A stretch of 64,000 nucleotides of DNA, from assembly GCF_964019755.1 (NCBI RefSeq), contig NZ_OZ026469.1:930001-994000 (forward strand). The letters are read 5' to 3'. This DNA is from Spiroplasma endosymbiont of Polydrusus cervinus (lineage in GTDB: Bacteria; Bacillota_I; Bacilli_A; Mycoplasmatales; Mycoplasmataceae). The notes under the pieces are model-generated. The model ran no database searches. It worked only from the letters and a program-made list of their open reading frames with translations, and was not told the origin of the DNA. Shown piece after piece: positions 7,604-22,834 of the stretch. The position numbers were made by a program, and so were the translations under genes. Each line of letters starts with the position of its first letter. Position 1 is the stretch's first letter.

Positions 7604-8834
7604 TAGACTGCACCCAAAAGAGTAAGTAAAGAAAAAAAGTCTTTGCTAAACTTTAAAGGAGGTGTATTTTTATATGGCAAGAAAAGGACAAAAATTTAAT
7701 AAATATACAGCATATTTTCGAAAAATGATAGTATAAGAGGTTAAAAATAATAGTATAAGTTTTATTGCAAAAAAATATCAAATTAATAAAAAAACCGTTG
7801 CTTCATGGTATGAAAATTTTAAGAAAGGAATTTTAAACACCAATAAAGGTCCAAAAGAATCATTTGAAAAAAGAGATTTAAACTATTACAAAGTTAGGTA
7901 TGAATTACTAAAAAAGCTTCATGACTTTTACAATTAAATAAAAGAAAAATTGTATCTTTTATCAAAGAAAACATTAATAAATATCCACTAAATTTATTAC
8001 TTGATATAACAGATTTAAAGCGTAGTTATTGAGATAAATATAAAAATTATTCAAGTAATGGTAAGGATAGCGAATCATTAAAAAATATTGTAAAAGTCTA
8101 TGAAGAAAATTTAAAACAATTTGGTTATCGTCGAATTACCAAATATTTAAAAGAAGATTATGGCATTGTTTATAATGCTAAAAAAGTATTGCGAATTATG
8201 AAAGAAAATAATATTCAAGCTGAATATGTAAAGCGTATACGTAGAAAAATATTAATAAAACAAAATAGAAATAAAAATATAATTAAATATCCTGATTTAG
8301 TAAATCGTAATTTTAATGATATTAAAGAAAGATTTTCAATTTTATTTACTGATGTAACTTATTTAATTTGAAATGGTAAAAAACATTATCAATCAACAAT
8401 ACTTGATGGATATACTAAAGAAATTATTGATGTAAAATGATCAAAATTTAATAATAACAAACTTGTAATTGATAATTTAAATGATGCAATTAATAAAATT
8501 AAAAAAATAAAAAAAAAGATTTAAATAAAATAATAATTCATTCAGATCACGGATATCAATATACATCTAAAGATTACAATAGTAAATGTTTAGATAACAA
8601 AATTATAATTTCAATGGGTAAAAATTATCATTGTGCAGACAACATTATTATTGAAAGTTTTCATTCATTACTTAAAAAAAGAACAATCCATAATAAAAAT
8701 TATAAATCTCATAATGAATATATTAATGATGTTAAAAAATGAAATAAATGATATTCAAACCAAAAAGAAAAATATATAATAAATGAAAGTTTGTAAACCT
8801 TTTTATTAATACTTACTAAACAGGGTGAAGTCTA
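7604..8834 (+). mobile_element. IS3-family element copy 1 (defective)
   Basis: The 1231-bp element is bounded by imperfect inverted ends beginning TAGACTGCACCC; the right end is mutated to a CTTCACCC reading. It is nearly identical to copy 2 at 11317-12545 but carries a nonsense codon in orfA and a frameshift in orfB. It sits inside the IS30-type transposase gene. Confidence 0.9.
7674..8796 (+). pseudogene. IS3-family transposase OrfAB, inactivated
   Basis: OrfA starts at 7674 after the RBS AAAGGAGG but meets TAA at 7734-7736, where copy 2 has CAA (Gln). A slippery heptamer A AAA AAG at 7910-7916 would shift ribosomes by -1 into orfB. OrfB has the DDE residues in DVTYLI, IIHSDHG and IIESFH, but extra A residues in an A-run near 8510-8520 break its frame just before the second Asp. 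It therefore cannot make an active transposase by itself. Confidence 0.88.
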
Positions 8835-11316: not shown

Positions 11317-12545
11317 TAGACTGCACCCTGTTTAGTAAGTATTAATAAAAAGGTTTACAAACTTTCATTTATTATATATTTTTCTTTTTGGTTTGAATAT
11401 CATTTATTTCATTTTTTAACATCATTAATATATTCATTATGAGATTTATAATTTTTATTATGGATTGTTCCTTTTTTAAGTAATGAATGAAAACTTTCAA
11501 TAATAATGTTGTCTGCACAATGATAATTTTTACCCATTGAAATTATAATTTTGTTATCTAAACATTTACTATTGTAATCTTTAGATGTATATTGATATCC
11601 GTGATCTGAATGAATTATTATTTTATTTAAATCTTTTTTTATTTTTTTAATTTTATTAATTGCATAATTTAAATTATCAATTACAAGTTTGTTATTATTA
11701 AATTTTGATCATTTTACATCAATAATTTCTTTAGTATATCCATCAAGTATTGTTGATTGATAATGTTTTTTACCATTTCAAATTAAATAAGTTACATCAG
11801 TAAATAAAATTGAAAATCTTTCTTTAATATCATTAAAATTACGATTTACTAAATCAGGATATTTAATTATATTTTTATTTCTATTTTGTTTTATTAATAT
11901 TTTTCTATGCATACGCTTTACATATTCAGCTTGAATATTATTTTCTTTCATAATTCGCAATACTTTCTTAGCATTATAAACAATGCCATAATCTTCTTTT
12001 AAATATTTGGTAATTCGACGATAACCAAATTGTTTTAAATTTTCTTCATAGACTTTTACAATATTTTTTAATGATTCGCTATCCTTACCATTACTTGAAT
12101 AATTTTTATATTTATCTCAATAACTACGCTTTAAATCTGTTATATCAAGTAATAAATTTAGTGGATATTTATTAATGTTTTCTTTGATAAAAGATACAAT
12201 TTTTCTTTTATTTAATTGTAAAAGTCATGAAGCTTTTTTAGTAATTCATACCTAACTTTGTAATAGTTTAAATCTCTTTTTTCAAATGATTCTTTTGGAC
12301 CTTTATTGGTGTTTAAAATTCCTTTATTAAAATTTTCATACCATGAAGCAACAGTTTTTTTATTAATTTGATATTTTTTTGCAATAAAACTTATACTATT
12401 ATTTTTAACCTCTTGTACTATCATTTTTCGAAAATATGCTGTATATTTATTAAATTTTTGTCCTTTTCTTGCCATATAAAAATGCACCTCCTTTAAAGTT
12501 TAGCAAAGACTTTTTTTCTTTACTTACTTTTTTGGGTGCAGTCTA
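11317..12545 (-). mobile_element. IS3-family element copy 2 (apparently intact)
   Basis: A 1229-bp element with terminal inverted repeats starting TAGACTGCACCC at both ends and an internal shared AGTAAGTA. Both reading frames are open, so it could be the active source copy. It is followed directly by a partial extra copy of its own end (12550-12593). I see no clear target duplication. Confidence 0.9.
11355..12475 (-). CDS. IS3-family transposase OrfAB, made by -1 frameshift
   Basis: OrfA (from ATG 12475, RBS AAAGGAGG, stop at 12212-12214) has a helix-turn-helix (FIAKKYQINKKTVASWYENF). OrfB lies in the -1 frame and ends at 11355; it has the DDE set in FTDVTYL, IIHSDHG and IIESFH. The heptamer A AAA AAG at 12233-12239 (minus strand) is a classic IS3-family slip site. 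After the slip the frame reads KKASWLLQLNKRK, using TGA as Trp. The fusion would be about 374 aa. This is the only copy in the window without a break. Confidence 0.9.
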
Positions 12546-13604: not shown

Positions 13605-13790
13605 CCTCCCTAATATTTTAAAAAGCAAAGGCAATTAACCAAATTGATTAATTGCCTGAAACATTATTTAAAAAATATAAAAACATGTCATTGTTCTATA
13701 TCACAATAATGCCTCGGCAACATAATTAAGATTTAATAAAATCCGTTGCTATCTATGGTATTTTGATGACTATGGTACAATACCAAAGAT
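13605..13790 (-). ncRNA. L10 leader (autoregulatory mRNA leader of rplJL)
   Basis: The long transcribed leader before rplJ contains paired segments typical of L10 leaders, which bind L10(L12)4 and shut down their own operon. Directly upstream of the RBS is a strong hairpin (AGGCAATTAATC pairing with GATTAATTGCCT across an AATTTG-type loop region, 13628-13657), followed by T-rich sequence. Other paired parts contain ATACCATAG and related segments. Position, length and the hairpin support the call; I did not fold it computationally. Confidence 0.65.
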
Positions 13791-15730: not shown

Positions 15731-16048
15731 TAGACTGCACCCTGTTTAGTAAGTATTAATAAAAGGTTTACAAACTTTCATTTATTATATATTTTTCTTT
15801 TTGGTTTGAATATCATTTATTTCATTTTTTAACATCATTAATATATTCATTATGAGATTTATAATTTTTATTATGGATTGTTCCTTTTTTAAGTAATGAA
15901 TGAAAACTTTCAATAATAATGTTGTCTGCACAATGATAATTTTTACCCATTGAAATTATAATTTTGTTATCTAAACATTTACTATTGTAATCTTTAGATG
16001 TATATTGATATCCGTGATCTGAATGAATTATTGTTTTATTTAAATCTT
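15731..16048 (-). mobile_element. IS3-family element copy 3, truncated
   Basis: 318 bp match the right end of copies 1 and 2 starting at TAGACTGCACCC, then stop abruptly at 16048. It encodes only the last part of OrfB, from DLNKTIIHSDHG to INESL, with the second Asp and the Glu of the DDE set. The open frame runs 26 codons into foreign DNA upstream; that part is accidental. The cut marks the left border of the phage-like region. Confidence 0.88.
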
Positions 16049-16071
16049 GGCATCGTGTACGATGAACCTCC

Positions 16072-16112
16072 AAAAAACAACTCTTGTTAAATAAAAAGGG
16101 TTGTTTTTTTAT
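16072..16112. terminator. Bidirectional terminator-like hairpin
   Basis: AAAAAACAAC pairs with GTTGTTTTTTT across a 20-base loop. Flanking A- and T-runs on the two sides allow termination on either strand at the border of the phage-like region. Confidence 0.6.
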
Positions 16113-16127
16113 TTGTAAACCCATAAT

Positions 16128-16314
16128 TATTAATTAATTCAGAGAAAGGGCAGCATCTTAAATTCTTAAAATAGAAACTTTTTATCACAACTTTAAGTTA
16201 ACGAAAAAAGTTGTATTACACATTTATTAAATATCTTAGAAATCTTTACAAAGTGTACCTGTTTTTTTCTCCTAATTTAAGGTGTTGTCCTTTCTCTGTT
16301 TTAGTTAATTAATT
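16128..16314 (+). ncRNA. Structured RNA element with a 24-bp wobble-rich closing helix
   Basis: Bases 16141-16164 (AGAGAAAGGGCAGCATCTTA...) pair over 24 positions with 16274-16297. The only three non-Watson-Crick positions are all G-U pairs, and an outer 8-bp helix TTAATTAA (16130-16137 with 16305-16312) extends it. The 109-nt interior contains ACAACTTT/AAAGTTGT. Preservation through G-U pairs suggests the RNA, not the DNA, is functional. It lies just upstream of the gene at 16360. Confidence 0.6.
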
Positions 16315-16359
16315 TGGCTAATAAATAAAAAAACTTAATATCAAAGAAAGGAGTAAGTA

Positions 16360-16599
16360 ATGGAAATTAATACGCAACAAACAATATGTGATGTTGATAA
16401 TTGCTATAAATCAATATCATTCATTACCGAAGAATTTTTATCAAATAAAGTTTTATGAACTTGTGATAAACACAAAGATTTATTAAATCGTACAAAAGAT
16501 AAGAAACAAAAGCGATTTTATCAAAAAATAGAAAATTCAAAAATTATCTTTGATTGAGAAACTGGTTATTTTAAACTTTGATTTTATAAAACAACTTAA
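16360..16599 (+). CDS. Small unknown phage-region protein (79 aa)
   Basis: Starts at ATG with RBS AAAGGAG at 16346-16352. The product has CDVDNCYKSI and WTCDKHKDLL, giving a C-x4-C plus C-x2-H arrangement that could hold zinc, then a basic C-terminal half with several Trp (TGA). I do not recognise it. It sits between two candidate structured RNAs at the start of the rightward phage module. Confidence 0.6.
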
Positions 16600-17145
16600 T
16601 GCAGTGTGGGACGGTTATTTTAAATAACTAAGTGCTTCCATAAGAACATGAGTTTAAGCTCATTTCCACAACCAGCCGAGGCAAGTGCTGAAATAGTGTA
16701 TGAGGAAATATGTAAATCGGCGCTGGTTTATTAGAACTAAGCGATAGTCGTGATAAGTGCAAGGTCAACATCGAACGACAATAAAGATAGAGATGGCCAC
16801 TTTATAAATAAATTTGCGATAGATATTGTCCCATAGAGGATGGCAGCGGTTTAAAAACCACAAAGCCAGCATTAGGCTCTTCAAGGTGCAAGTGAATTTA
16901 TTTTAAAAACTGAACGTTTTGACCTGAAATGGTGCGGATGAAGAGAGAGAATTCTCTGGCGTAAACAATAAAAAACAACTGTCTATTATCTAATAATAAA
17001 TAAATATTAAATATATTATCGCCACCGCTCATCCCCAGTGAAGCGGATGGCGTAGTAAATAAATAGATAAATACTTATATAACTAATTATCGCTTTGACA
17101 CTTTCACTTGGGAGTGAGTGCCAGCGAATTAAAAATAGGAGGAAA
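16600..17145 (+). ncRNA. Large candidate structured non-coding RNA (about 540 nt)
   Basis: There is no credible ORF here, yet the sequence is clearly more GC-rich than its surroundings and full of pairings: ACCAGCCGA with TCGGCGCTGGT (about 16671 and 16716), ATGAGTTTAAGCTCAT, AGAGAGAATTCTCT, GCCACCGCT with AGCGGATGGC (about 17021-17052), and CACTTTCACTTGGGAGTGAGTG at the end. It lies in a phage early region between small genes, the setting of large ornate phage RNAs such as ROOL and GOLLD. Membership of either family is not shown. Confidence 0.6.
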
Positions 17146-17149
17146 TATA

Positions 17150-17431
17150 ATGGAATATAAAAGTTTGTATATTAATAAAACTTGAAATGAAATAACAACA
17201 TTATTTGATTGAGTGAATTGTCAACCTGTTAATTGTCGTATTTCACATCATAAAAATCATTATGATTTACAATGTTTAGAATGAGCAAAAATGTATTTAA
17301 ATTTATTTGAAAATAAATGAGATGTTATTGCTTCTTATATGCAATATTACAAAATTAACGATATTTTAGATTTAGCATCAGATGGTTGAAAAATATTACA
17401 AATTGAGAAAAAAATCAATCAAATAATTTAG
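17150..17431 (+). CDS. Unknown phage-region protein (93 aa)
   Basis: ATG follows the strong RBS ATAGGAGGAA. The Trp-rich product (several TGA codons) has CQPVNCRISHHKNHYDLQC, a Cys/His cluster that might bind metal. It shares the tight, same-strand layout of phage early genes, with the next ATG 9 bases after its stop. The family was not recognised. Confidence 0.6.
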
Positions 17432-17440
17432 AAGGTTTAT

Positions 17441-17608
17441 ATGAAAAAGTTAAATAAAATTTGTCTTAAACAAAGATATTGAGGTTATTGTTTTCATAAA
17501 GAATGCAATAAAGAAAATAAATTGAATGAATTAATGCTTAAAAGTTATTCAGTATCGCAAGAAGATATTACGGATGAACATTGAGCATTAAACAATAAAA
17601 AGAATTAG
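17441..17608 (+). CDS. Small unknown phage-region protein (55 aa)
   Basis: A 55-aa basic peptide starting MKKLNKICLKQRYWGYCFHK, with C-x8-C-x3-H-x2-C spacing suggestive of a metal knuckle. The RBS GAAGG is at the end of the previous gene. It is too short for family assignment. Confidence 0.5.
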
Positions 17609-17621
17609 GAGGAATAAGAAA

Positions 17622-17912
17622 ATGTCATATTGTATTAGTGATTACTTAAATGAAAAATGAATTAATAATAACGCATTAAAAATTAGTAATAAAGATATTA
17701 TTTATGCACAAATTGATAGTGACTATGCTATGAGTTGAGAATTAAATTTATATCTTAAATTTGGTAATGCAGAGCGACATGTAGGTAATATTTCATTGCC
17801 AAAAGATTTTGATTTAAATTTAAAATGATATGAAATTGATGAGGTTAAAGGTTTAATAGATGATTATTTAGAAGATGAAGAAGCAGACTACGAAGTGATA
17901 AATTATGAATAA
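17622..17912 (+). CDS. Unknown acidic phage-region protein (96 aa)
   Basis: ATG follows AGGAGGAATAAGAAA. The product ends in a strongly acidic tail (DDYLEDEEADYEVINYE). There are no membrane segments. The next gene starts inside its last codons, showing an operon. Small acidic early proteins are common in phages, but the function is not recognisable. Confidence 0.6.
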
Positions 17913-18051
17913 TATGTGAAAAGATGAAAGTGGTTATGTTTATAGCGAAGAAGATTTATTTAATATCGCATTAGAAGAATGTTATTCAGAAGAGACTGCT
18001 TACGAATATATTGATAATTTAATAAGTGAAGTGGATTTGGAGGAAATTTAA
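17905..18051 (+). CDS. Small acidic unknown protein (48 aa)
   Basis: Overlaps the previous gene by 8 bases (ATGAATAA). The peptide is acidic (SEEDLFNIALEECYSEETAY). It may be translated by re-initiation. Its 3' end carries GGAGGAAA, the apparent RBS of the following gene. Confidence 0.5.
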
Positions 18052-18830
18052 TTCTGGCAGATTTAAAGTTAAATAATCAAATTAAAAATATTACCTATCC
18101 ATTTTATTTAAAAGGTAATGATTTTAAAGAATTAAGTTTAAAAGCATTACCGATTAAAAATTGAATTGATAATCACGGTAAAGAATTAGCAGAGTTTATC
18201 TATCGTCATCTTAATCATTATGCATTAAATGGTTATCAAGATATACATTTAAAAGATATACCCAGTGCTATTAGTAAAATTGATTTTGTTTTTAGAGAAC
18301 CATTAGAATTAATAAAAGATTTTAAAGATGAATTAAATCGAATTAGAGTTAATATTATTAATTTAGAAAAAGTACTTCAAAATAATAAAATTGAAATTAA
18401 AAATAGCCTAATACAAGTTCAATACTTAAAACAACAACAGTTTATTCAAACTAAAAAACAAGAACAAGAAAATAGGGTTGAATATGCTAATAACTTAACG
18501 CCTGATATGGGGTTAGACATGGACCAAATTGAAGATGAACAAGTTCGTGTTATGGAAGATGTAGCAAAAATAGAACAAGATTTAGAAAAAACTACTAGTA
18601 AATTTCGGAAAGAAAAAATATTAATTAAAGATATTGATATTTTGGGTGTTAATGATGATTTTTTACAAAATGCTGATAAATTAGAACTTATTAATTTAAT
18701 TAAAAATTATTTAATTGTTGATGAACAAATTATTAAAAACGAAATTAAAAAACAATGATATAGTAATAAAAACATTAATACTATTGGTGTTAATGGAATT
18801 AAATTCAAAATAAATAAAGGAGAGAAATAA
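18051..18830 (+). CDS. Coiled-coil phage early protein upstream of recT
   Basis: An open frame of about 259 aa without ATG at its start; GGAGG at 18039-18043 points to ATT at 18051 (or CTG at 18054) as initiator, possibly a mutated ATG. The N-terminal 90 residues are globular (KNITYPFYLKGNDFKELSL); residues 95-190 form a charged coiled coil with Gln-rich segments (YLKQQQFIQTKKQEQEN); the rest is helical. It ends 2 bases before recT, where phages often place a nuclease or accessory recombination gene, but I see no nuclease motif. Confidence 0.65.
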
Positions 18831-18832
18831 TT

Positions 18833-19710
18833 ATGAATAATCAAATGGGAATAAAAGAATTAGTAGCAACAGCAGTTAAAGCATATGAATTAAATGTTAA
18901 TTCTAAATATTTACAAGAAAATTTAATTGCTTTACAATAACTAAAATTAAAAAATAATCAAAGTTATATGAATTTAGTGAGTGGGTAATGCTGATAATGG
19001 AAAAATTACAGCCTTAGGAATTATTAATTTAAGTAATAAAGGTTTAATATTCGGAAAAGATTTTAATATTATTCCATTTAAAAATAAATTAATAACTATT
19101 ATTGATAGTAGTGTGTTTCAAAAAAGAATGGAACAAGAAAATTGAATGTTAAAACGAGGAATTATTTATAAAAGTGAAAAATTTGTATGAGATACCGATT
19201 TACAAAAACCAAAATTACATGAAATAGATTTTATGACAAATACCAGTCAATATGAAAATATTATTGGTGCTTATGCTTTTGGAATTAATCGTTTAACTGG
19301 TGAAACAAAAGGAATTTTATTAAGAAAAGCTGATATTGACCGTTTAAAAAATAGTAGTCCAAGTGGAAATAGTGAATATTCGCCTTGAAATAAATGACCA
19401 AAAGAAATGGTTAAAGCAAAATTATATCGTAAATTAGCCCAAGAATTAGGTGTAGATATTACTGACATTGATTTAGATGAAAAAGAAATAAAAGAATATA
19501 GTAATTTTGATTATATACCTTTTAATGATATTACTGTCGCCAAAAATAAGGGGCATATGAGCGATGAACCATTATCAAATAATATAAATAAATACCCTAT
19601 CTTATGAAGAAATAGCGGACACTAATGATAATGTAGTTAAAGAAGAAGATATATCAAATGTAGTACCAACAGTTAATAATAATGATGAAGAATGATCAAG
19701 ATGGGAATAA
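18833..19710 (+). pseudogene. recT: RecT-family single-strand annealing protein, degraded
   Basis: RecT anneals complementary single strands in phage recombination. The hallmark region is present: IIGAYAFGINRLTGETKGIL, then RLKNSSPSGNSEYSPWNKW, KEMVKAKLYRKLAQELGVDI. The frame is broken by TAA at 18938, a shift near 18985 and another near 19590, after which an acidic tail continues to TAA at 19708 (NNNDEEWSRWE). A full-length protein would be about 290 aa. With this many lesions it is decayed, unless several are sequencing errors. Confidence 0.82.
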
Positions 19711-20195
19711 AAATGGGTATTGACCCATCAGGAACTGGCACTACGGCTATTGTTGCTTTTAAAGATAATATGTTATTAGATAAACAAGAATTTATAAACA
19801 AAGATTGAAAAGAACACTCTAAATTTATTATAAATTATTTGAAAAATGAAAAACCACTTGAGGAAATATTATCAAATAATAATAAACTAAAATATTTAAT
19901 TTTTATAGAAAATTGTTTATATACAAATGCCAATGGCTCAAAAGATAGAGATAATTTATTAAGACTATTAGGTTCATTAGAAATACAAGGATATATTGCT
20001 ACTGTTTCACCAAAACACACTAAATCAGTTGTTAAAAATATGGAAAATTTAAGTAAATATAATGATAGTTGTATATGAGAATTTGATAAAGATAGTAATT
20101 TAATTTATCAATATGGTAAAGGTTGAAAATATAATAATGAGAAAATAAGTAATCATTTACGAGATGCCATTATTATTGCTAATTATGAGGTTTAA
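19692..20195 (+). CDS. RuvC-like Holliday junction resolvase / RNase H-fold nuclease
   Basis: A 167-aa (or slightly shorter) protein with MGIDPSGTGTTAIVAF, the first strand and catalytic Asp of the RuvC/RNase H fold. A central FIENCLYTNA carries an acidic Glu, and the C-terminal HLRDAIIIANYEV has the Asp-Ala helix typical of phage resolvases. It would cut branched DNA during phage recombination or packaging. Starts at 19692, 19701 and 19713 are all possible; the core begins at the last. It overlaps the end of recT, supporting one recombination operon. Confidence 0.75.
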
Positions 20196-20199
20196 TATT

Positions 20200-20379
20200 A
20201 TGAAAAAATCATATAATCAAAAAACAGGAAAATATTATTCTTGTAAAATTCGAAATGTTAATATTTACTTAAATAAAAATGAAGAAAAAGTTTGAAATCA
20301 ATTATCTAACTTTGATACTTATTCGCAACGAATAGAACATCTTATTAATTTTTATATAAGTCACAACAAAGAAAAATAA
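20200..20379 (+). CDS. Small basic protein, possibly ribbon-helix-helix (59 aa)
   Basis: A 59-aa basic protein with NIYLNKNEEKVWNQLSNF then helical IEHLINFYISHN. The strand-helix-helix pattern resembles short DNA-binding regulators; this is a guess. It is the last gene of the rightward module and ends 2 bases before a shared terminator. Confidence 0.5.
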
Positions 20380-20380
20380 A

Positions 20381-20408
20381 AAATAACCTTAATTGGTTAT
20401 TTTTTTAA
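20381..20408. terminator. Shared terminator between convergent phage modules
   Basis: AAATAACC pairs with GGTTATTT around TTAATT, with a following T-run on the plus strand and an A-run in front that serves the minus strand. It separates the rightward early genes from the leftward late genes. Confidence 0.8.
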
Positions 20409-20692
20409 ATACTATTTGTTAGTTTTCTAATAGCATATTTTTGTGCTTGTTTTTTGTCGTTTACTTTAACTTGTTTTTTAACATTTTTAATTTGTCCTGT
20501 TTTAAGGACTAATTCTGTTGCATAATCAGGCCCTCGTAAATATTTTTCGTGGGCAATAACAGCCGTTCTTAATTCTCTAATTTCTGCTTTATATTTTTTA
20601 ACTTTTTTAGCAGATAATCCAAGAATGCCAAGACTACCCACCCCCCCTGCGCCAGCTAACACAAGTAAAGCAATCATTAATGTTTCATTCAT
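20405..20692 (-). CDS. Small membrane protein, possibly holin-like
   Basis: I start at 20692, preceded by GGAAG, giving 95 aa; a longer frame exists but lacks an RBS. One hydrophobic, Gly-rich segment (IALLVLAGAGGVGSLGILGL, residues 6-25) is followed by a basic helical tail. A single-span small protein at the end of a late module fits a holin or virion membrane protein. Neither is proven. Confidence 0.55.
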   Translation of the reverse strand: MNETLMIALLVLAGAGGVGSLGILGLSAKKVKKYKAEIRELRTAVIAHEKYLRGPDYATELVLKTGQIKNVKKQVKVNDKKQAQKYAIRKLTNSI

Positions 20693-20847
20693 TTTTTTGC
20701 TTCCTTTCTTATCCTTACTCAAACAGTGGCCATCCATTCTTTCAGAACAAAATAATTTATAAATTAAGCTATATAACCACCCAAAAATATCTACCACCCC
20801 TATATATAGTCTATTTTAATAAAATTTAATTATTAGTTTCATAATTA

Positions 20848-21480
20848 TTATTTATATTTATTTTTATCGTTATTTTCTTCTTGTTTTTGTTTTTTAATAT
20901 TTTCATCTTGTATATTTTTAAATATTTCTTCTGTTATACCATCTAAATTATTTCATTGTTTTGCTATTCTTGGTTGAATAACGCGCGGATTAATCCGACA
21001 ATCTAAGCAATATCTTAAATGGTCTTTTTTTCATTTTGATTTATCAATTAAAATAATAATTAAAGAAATTATTAAAGTAATTAAAGGTAAAATTGTAAAT
21101 AATAATCCCATTTTAGATAATTTTAATCGTGGAATATCAATTTTCATATCTACTTTCGGTTTACTACTAGCAACAAATATACCCTGAATTCCATGGATAA
21201 ATAAAGGTGTTAATAAAATAGCGATGCCATTACCTCAATATTGACCATAATTGTATCAATCAATTTTTCCTTTAATTGCATCAATCATTCCATATTCTAA
21301 CCAACAATTTAATGCTAAAAATATTAATGTATAAAAACTAACTACTCAACTACGAATTTTATATTTTCTTTCTCATTCTCTAATATCTTTATGAGTTCAA
21401 TTATAAGTTGGAATAGGATCTTTTTTAAATCAATTTCAAGGTAATACACCCTTTAATCAAGTTTTTTTATCTTGTTTCAC
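20848..21480 (-). CDS. Phage-region membrane protein (210 aa)
   Basis: GTG start at 21480 after AGAAAGGAA. Three hydrophobic segments are visible (around VVSFYTLIFLALNCWLEY, GIAILLTPLFIHGIQGIFV and LLFTILPLITLIISLIIIL), then C-x2-C (YCLDCRIN) and a long Lys/Glu tail ending NDKNKYK. Its placement between the fibre-like and holin-like genes suggests a lysis or virion membrane role. I do not recognise the family. Confidence 0.6.
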
Positions 21481-21495
21481 TAATTAAATTCCTTT

Positions 21496-22704
21496 CTAAC
21501 TTACTTTTTTTCTTTGAATATATAATGCTTGCATTTTTGCAGGTGTTCCGTATTGATTTTTATATGATATAACTCTTCCTTGCGAAAATGATACATAAAA
21601 ATATAATCCATCATTTGTTTCAATTGGAGCTTTAACCGAAAATGGAAATTTAGGATGTGTTGTAACCATACCACCATATCCACCAGTTGGATTATTTTCA
21701 TTATTTTGAACAAAAACTTGATAACTATAATTATCTTTATCATAGTTTTTAATGTCATAATAATGACTACTATCTGATATAAAATCACTAGTATTCACAA
21801 CTTCTCAATCATTATCAGTATTAATAGATATATCACCATTATCTAATAATGAATTCCCATTAATAGTTTTAATATTTGTTCCACTTATTAATTTATCTTA
21901 TTTAACATCTGATACCATTAATTGTTGTTGGTCATTTTTAATAATAGTTTTATTATCAATTGATGTTTCTACACTTGAACATTGTTTTGCTTTTCATACA
22001 TTATTTTCATAATAAATCGTATCATTATCAAACGGAACAACAAGTTTAATATATTCATTATAATCAATTTTACTATAATCAATAATTGTTGGATGAGTAA
22101 TATTAATAGTGTTATCAGTTTGCACTCTTTCTTTTAAATAAAATAATAAACTGTCATAAAATGTTTTTTTAGTAATATATTTATATTCTTCTTCTCAAGA
22201 ATGAGCATAATTCCCTAAATGATAATTATATGGTCTATCAACCGTTTTACTAGATATAATATCAATTATTTCACCAGCTAATTTTAAAGCATTTTTAACA
22301 TCTCTAGTAATATTTTCATTTGCTTCGGGGTCATTAGTTTGTGAATAAGCAACTCCACCTTGTGAAAAAGATGCACTACCAGTTAAATCATTAACACCTT
22401 TTGGTAAATATCAATTCATAACTGCTAATAAACAAGCAGATTGAATATAACTTAATCATTTATCATATTCAATTAAACCAGTATTATCTTTTTTCACTCA
22501 GGGAAATAAATCTTTTTTATTAATCTTATCTGAAATTGTGCCACCTGATAATCTATCCATTCATAAACTAGTTTTTAAAATAGCATTATAAATTAAATTA
22601 TCATTATAAGCAGATTGCTTACGGTCATTAATAGGTTGTCAAAGGTTACTTTCTTTAACATCTTCAACTGTTATAAATAACAAATTACTTAAATTATTTT
22701 CCAT
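21496..22704 (-). pseudogene. Phage structural/fibre-like protein with an in-frame stop
   Basis: ATG at 22704 after AAGGGGTG opens a 402-codon frame interrupted once, by TAA at 21898-21900 (codon 269). The first 268 residues include a head-connector-like N-terminus and ASFSQGGVAYSQTNDPEANE. Just after the stop comes SGTNIKTINGNSLLDNGDIS, a motif common in phage tail-fibre and baseplate proteins. Either a nonsense mutation truncates it or the second part is re-initiated at 21798. The product would be a virion protein. Confidence 0.65.
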
Positions 22705-22834
22705 ATAAAACACCCCTTAATTGATTTCGATATTTATTTCTTAAATTAGATAGTTTATAACTATTAACTTTTCTTTGTACTTTTTTAATTTTTTTAATAG
22801 TTTGATTAGTTTTATAAAACATACTTGACCGCAT
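22694..22834 (-). pseudogene. 3' remnant of a phage gene (46 codons)
   Basis: The peptide MRSSMFYKTNQTIKKIKKV... ends overlapping the ATG of the next gene, as expected in a phage operon. The frame stays open upstream (KFSPNDFF) to about 22855, where phage sequence ends. It is probably the C-terminal tail of a larger virion gene lost when the neighbouring element arrived. Confidence 0.5.

Follow-up and report, generated by a model that had tools for sequence, protein, structure and literature searches.

A conserved long RNA helix predicted at the head of the first gene set in many Spiroplasma prophages

A Spiroplasma prophage contains, close to its left end, a long inverted repeat, which raises the question of whether it is kept as DNA or as a folded RNA and, in the latter case, what this RNA may do for the phage. 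The window analysed here comprises 64,000 nucleotides (bases 930001-994000 of the 1.12-Mb assembly of the Spiroplasma endosymbiont of Polydrusus cervinus); it consists of Spiroplasma-like DNA, the genes of which are read with genetic code 4. Positions 16049-22826 (plus strand) represent a truncated prophage remnant related to Spiroplasma phage MaM-2019a, whose left end adjoins an IS3-type fragment (15768-16124; two further IS copies or fragments, likewise IS3-like by eye, are located at 8189-8796 and 11355-12487). Segment 16038-22826 is 98.5% identical, without a break, to copy L073 of genome G000; matches to L009 and L011 likewise end at 22826, and the match to L010 ends at 21536. The repeat precedes the early genes, whose region is marked by a RecT-like protein (18981-19625, plus strand; PF03837, E 1.3e-7; phrog_148, E 2.3e-11). 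BLAST comparison of 16050-17150 with 50,697 phage records yielded three matches, all of them MaM-2019a clones. The helix is present in 3/3 of these records, which carry annotations for TerL, TerS, portal, RecT or ERF, RuvC and transposase, and no other records were matched by their TerL. Thus, the first-pass annotation was right in assigning the helix to a phage. Rfam 15 returned no match above the gathering cut-off for the helix region, which speaks against a known Rfam family, and weak sub-threshold matches within 16000-17200; the sole Rfam match in the window above cut-off is a ribosomal protein L10 leader (13669-13776, minus strand).

The main helix of the window copy comprises 25 bp, in which the left arm (16140-16164) pairs with the right arm (16274-16298) from C16140-G16298 to T16164-A16274; its pairs were counted over 35 aligned copies. 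The helix had originally been described as 24 bp long (16141-16164 with 16274-16297), that is, at the correct location but one pair too short. Its three departures from perfect complementarity had been claimed to be G-U compatible, and indeed G16150-U16288, G16153-U16285 and U16156-G16282 are wobbles, and the sole non-Watson-Crick pairs, in plus-strand RNA of the window copy. In the predicted fold, a second helix of 9 bp (16129-16137 with 16301-16309) surrounds the main helix, and the arms enclose a loop (16165-16273) with small inner hairpins, which is roughly constant in length and free in sequence. One small inner hairpin loop (~16190-16212) has opposite orientations in copies L035 and L074, as though flipped. 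The minimum free energy of the plus strand is -52.4 kcal/mol as compared to -23.9 kcal/mol (sd 3.4) for 200 dinucleotide shuffles (z -8.4; equalled by 0/200), and the minus strand of the helix region gives -40.2 kcal/mol (z -4.3). Homologues from other groups share the fold (z -10.6 for L056 and z -7.9 for L066); in L056, outer and main helix are fused into one unbroken stem of >30 bp.

The module recurs in different surroundings. In the assembly containing the window, 20 copies of block 16110-16360 include both arms, 13 of them window-like and 7 of a second kind; two further copies break off within the loop, and of one only the left arm is present. Across 198 genomes of the order, a wobble-tolerant stem pattern was detected in 6, all within Spiroplasma, and the reversed pattern in 0. 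The upstream flanks are unrelated among the copies. The module is found behind three types of prophage end, and in each case a terminator-like hairpin comes after the end. Downstream, three groups can be distinguished. In group A, the module precedes the first gene of the window, an ORF of 79 aa (16360-16599, plus strand), whose presence under genetic code 4 agrees with the earlier claim that the helix precedes a small gene at 16360; its product shows a Cys/His pattern by eye and has no match in Pfam or PHROGs. In group B (~76% identical), the first gene starts ~430 nt downstream and encodes an N6/N4 DNA methyltransferase (PF01555, E 1.9e-28). In group C, found in other genomes of the genus, a 39-aa ORF stands between the module and the 79-aa gene. 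The orientation relative to the first gene is the same in the copies examined. We also considered group B as a mini-element, but one copy (L071) runs on into more phage-like genes, and group B therefore reads as another prophage. Loci L028 and L065-L071 would make up this second prophage type with the methyltransferase as first gene; L071 also encodes a predicted membrane protein that is transporter-like by eye. Prophage ends and transposases have probably been exchanged while the module stayed, and, as far as such comparisons can tell, it is the same structured RNA module that heads the first gene set in many Spiroplasma prophages.

The first-pass annotation had further argued that the helix is kept by G-U pairing, unlike a DNA repeat decaying by chance, and had proposed to look for covariation in homologous phage regions, with randomly mismatched homologues as the counter-case. 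In the alignment of 35 copies, from which L025 and L026 (interrupted) as well as L034 and L072 (truncated) were left out, 96.8% of 854 cells are paired, as compared to 46-53% (maximum 52.9%) when one side is slid. Two-sided changes occur at 5 pairs, RNAalifold retains 18 helix pairs, and the values for pairing, two-sided change and covariation were reached by 0/500 shuffles. A search for randomly mismatched homologues gave none: of the 735 cells of the 21-bp core, which count sequences and not events, 723 are paired, the others being A-C (3), other mismatches (4) and gaps (5). Events were counted by parsimony for 50 distinct homologues in three groups, using a tree built from the columns outside the arms, which is rough because prophages recombine. 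Watson-Crick pairs changed to G-U 14 times, to A-C 2 times and to another mismatch 3 times; G-U pairs changed to Watson-Crick 13 times, and two-sided compensations occurred 6 times. The bias towards G-U over A-C (14 of 16 events, p = 0.002) has to be read with the make-up of the 50 rows in mind, 35 of which were found via BLAST and 15 via the stem pattern (four antisense duplicates being removed), since this pattern admits only wobble-compatible letters at 11 positions per arm and the added rows thus favour the RNA reading. A conservative count, which omits one Watson-Crick to G-U event unique to the added row L048 and two ambiguous events at 16140, gives 11 G-U versus 2 A-C changes (p = 0.011, hand arithmetic).

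Nothing in a DNA repeat would favour G-U over A-C, as both are one mismatch viewed from two strands. With G-U far above A-C, the selected form is therefore the RNA of the plus strand, and the strand bias rules out an ordinary decayed DNA inverted repeat. Pairing kept via compensatory and wobble changes is what characterizes a conserved cis-acting structured RNA. Thus, the pattern of changes indicates that selection keeps a plus-strand RNA helix and that this helix is a working RNA part; the same strand bias is the one pointer to the putative transcription of the region. A DNA element that mimics an RNA helix, i.e. a protein-bound inverted repeat or a replication or transposition site, would account for the finding that the stem is conserved beyond pairing, with 17/21 positions in each arm identical between the consensus sequences of groups A and C. 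Nevertheless, we regard such an element as very unlikely, because a bias of 14 G-U versus 2 A-C changes is unexpected for double-stranded DNA sites and because the arm is hardly present outside the hairpin: a 13-nt arm motif, with at most one mismatch allowed, occurs at 45 genome places, nearly all of them inside copies of the same hairpin. Moreover, the module is common to three end types and is therefore not the transposase's own end.

Which part of the module matters can be judged from the same comparison of groups A and C. The spacer between terminator and helix (16103-16139, plus strand) is identical at 30/39 columns and the loop, whose length varies between 98 and 117 nt between the 21-bp arms of the 50 rows, at 47/124 positions (38%). 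As stem and spacer are conserved and the loop is free, the function is expected to depend on the stem, possibly together with the spacer, and not on a loop domain. This bears on the earlier suggestion that the leader may sense something. A ligand-sensing, riboswitch-like leader would likewise be structured and located upstream of a gene, but is hardly credible here: the loop is free where the ligand pocket would sit, such that no conserved ligand core outside the helices was found, there is no Rfam match, and the helix is very stable, with no rival fold of similar energy. Indeed, taking the left arm away from the leader costs >20 kcal/mol of stability at 10/10 loci with values. The loop is also relevant for the idea of a free-standing small RNA of ~185 nt with its own role, e.g. 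a phi29-type packaging RNA. In group B and in phage clone NSRO-P1, conservation starts just before the helix and stops at ~16315, right after it; in addition, the phage is ~19 kb in size and the module occupies its left end. Yet no terminator follows the helix, the loop, which would have to serve as functional head, lacks conservation from group A to group C, and the phage records annotate TerS and TerL, unlike phi29, all of which makes such an RNA quite unlikely. In another clone, NSRO-P2, 5 nt of the left arm are missing.

Upstream of the helix, the prophage end carries a terminator-like hairpin with a T run (16072-16109, plus strand; AACAACTC...GGGTTGTTTTTTT, read directly). Its sequence varies by end type; for most classes, the energy lies between -8 and -18 kcal/mol. 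The conserved spacer that follows may contain a promoter: the window has a -10-like CATAAT at 16122-16127 and many group C copies have TAAAAT, which may be compared to the promoters of S. melliferum with a -10 element TAWAAT and a start ~6 nt further, as given in excerpts of PMC5138195. The spacer has no acceptable -35 element, and a consensus scan detected no promoter over threshold between terminator and helix. Within 16098-16122 of the window, the T-run tail can pair with the sequence right after it, and the partners vary together between classes (native mean -4.9 kcal/mol versus -3.5 kcal/mol when re-paired; 0/5000 as low). A terminator/antiterminator switch acting as attenuator on the plus strand was nevertheless rejected, as the partner of the tail lies past the T run and would thus be transcribed too late for attenuation. 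The order of tail and partner suits attenuation on the minus strand. The Mycoplasma sRNA MCS4 was also rejected; its match at 16019-16111 stayed below threshold (34.7 bits, cut-off 56) and covers mostly the terminator, and an MCS4 search of the organism's own genome gave no match, with the search controls matching nothing either.

The location of module and terminator-like hairpin directly behind the prophage end, whatever the end type, could also suit an insulator. That is, transcripts entering from host DNA would fold at the module and be terminated or destroyed, thereby keeping the early genes silent in the lysogen. We consider this unlikely: the early genes would then require a separate internal promoter downstream of the left arm, and the scan of 16165-16360 on the plus strand found none. 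Moreover, the long helix has no trailing T run.

Tentatively, we favour a different role, namely that the helix provides the early transcript with a stable double-stranded leader, probably serving RNase III-type processing or protecting the 5' end. According to this proposal, the helix would be transcribed as 5' leader of the early message, with a start near the helix base, and would act through its double strand in processing or protection. Its likeliest form would be an RNase III substrate that provides the early message with a defined, stable 5' part, by analogy with the substrates that flank rRNA precursors and separate early mRNAs in other phages. We prefer RNase III because a long, near-perfect stem closing a free loop resembles the processing helices of this enzyme; at 25 bp in the window, the helix exceeds the 20 bp expected of a near-perfect RNase III element, and the host encodes RNase III (TIGR02191, E 1e-67, above the curated cut-off). 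Cutting of the helix itself is suggested by analogy. A stabilizing 5' helix is a close second form of the same idea, so that protection of the message, which had been named in the first-pass annotation, is possible. Expression of the module may need induction, given that prophage expression varies by condition in Spiroplasma glossinidia, where many of the unexpressed genes are prophage genes according to a preprint (PMC12408004).

The proposed leader could additionally affect translation in group A, where the right arm and the first gene's ribosome-binding site are almost complementary. The right arm could mask this site, whereas the left arm occupies the right arm, and the intact leader would therefore leave the ribosome-binding site open. 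At 9 group A loci, the predicted unpaired fraction of the site is 0.47-0.83 in the full leader and falls to 0.02-0.34 when the left arm is taken away; at the group C locus L062, removal of the left arm changes the value from 0.52 to 0.42. These values, as well as those for leader stability, come from 10 of 14 loci, and the site of L011 is not that of the 79-aa gene. The complementarity is absent in group C. Conserved masking was accordingly rejected, and masking is, at best, an addition peculiar to one lineage.

The module is missing upstream of about a dozen copies of the first gene. The sequences preceding the 79-aa gene fall into 54 distinct contexts, of which 40 were assigned to a class with the right-arm motif and 14 to a class without it, although L054 was placed in the former and shows none in its row, and the latter include L097 with a full module and L083 with a 5'-truncated module match. 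At 13 of the 17 loci listed, prophage end and terminator stand straight before the ribosome-binding site, with no helix; L090 has the identical tail behind other DNA. In L091, the region between the arms is gone, an apparent deletion having fused the left arm to the ribosome-binding site; the two have AGAAAGG in common. Thus, the module can be lost or replaced and is not indispensable in every lineage. A helix-less lineage (L039, L040, L047, L049, L054, L061 and similar) has a leader of its own, in which a strong hairpin spans the T-run tail and CTCCTAAAAGGAG and could conceal the ribosome-binding site.

Downstream of the 79-aa gene, positions 16597-17140 form a stretch of ~540 nt without annotated gene, which reaches 40% G+C as compared to a background of ~25%. 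It is conserved in 8/14 genomes of the genus, with exchangeable blocks, has no Rfam match and looks like a large structured RNA; two-sided changes affect 16/127 predicted pairs on the plus strand and 21/116 on the minus strand. In NSRO-P1, the 79-aa gene is absent and the helix is adjacent to this region. The helix might accordingly be one domain of a phage RNA machine, i.e. of a stable non-coding transcript that runs from the prophage end and, in several lineages, into 16597-17140, the 79-aa gene being optionally inserted between helix and region. We give this reading little credence. If it were true, a role in replication, packaging or control of transposing phages would have to be envisaged in place of an ordinary leader.

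Tailed phages of mollicutes are little studied, and some Spiroplasma genomes contain up to dozens of related prophages. An early RNA that is conserved across phage lineages, first genes and integration ends may offer a handle on how these phages are switched on in hosts that have few regulators. Apart from that, the strand bias of wobble changes provides a clean test case for deciding whether an inverted repeat is kept as DNA or as an RNA helix.

A full-text literature search, judged by titles and excerpts (including PMC8208695), retrieved no description of this RNA. As regards known systems, the module shares with the 5' stabilizing stem-loops of bacterial mRNAs a helix near the 5' end, which is presumed here, and an open ribosome-binding site downstream, but its stem is much longer. 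The prohead RNA of phi29 is encoded at the left end of a ~19-kb genome and has a long helix joining its 5' and 3' ends and a branched interior. The module resembles it in its position at the left end, the long closing helix and, in the window copy, the branched interior. In contrast, MaM-2019a has TerS and TerL by record annotation, unlike a phi29-type phage, which would package with a pRNA-dependent ATPase and no such terminase, the interior with its 38% identity between groups A and C offers no conserved head with interlocking loops, and there is no match to prohead RNA in Rfam. Early mRNAs of T7-type phages contain several RNase III sites between genes. These sites have in common with the module a double-stranded element before early phage genes; here, the stem is longer, a single copy stands at the head of the unit, and cleavage is only predicted. 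The leader-trailer helices of bacterial rRNA precursors processed by RNase III, a family described in PMC10250234, likewise combine a long, near-perfect helix with a large loop on which the helix imposes no constraint and, like the module, belong to one transcript with the product; the module differs in that it surrounds ~100-117 nt of non-product RNA in place of rRNA, and its cutting is proposed by analogy. Seen against these systems, the helix is a conserved long-stem phage RNA element, and as such of a kind already known, with a putative function at the start of the early message.
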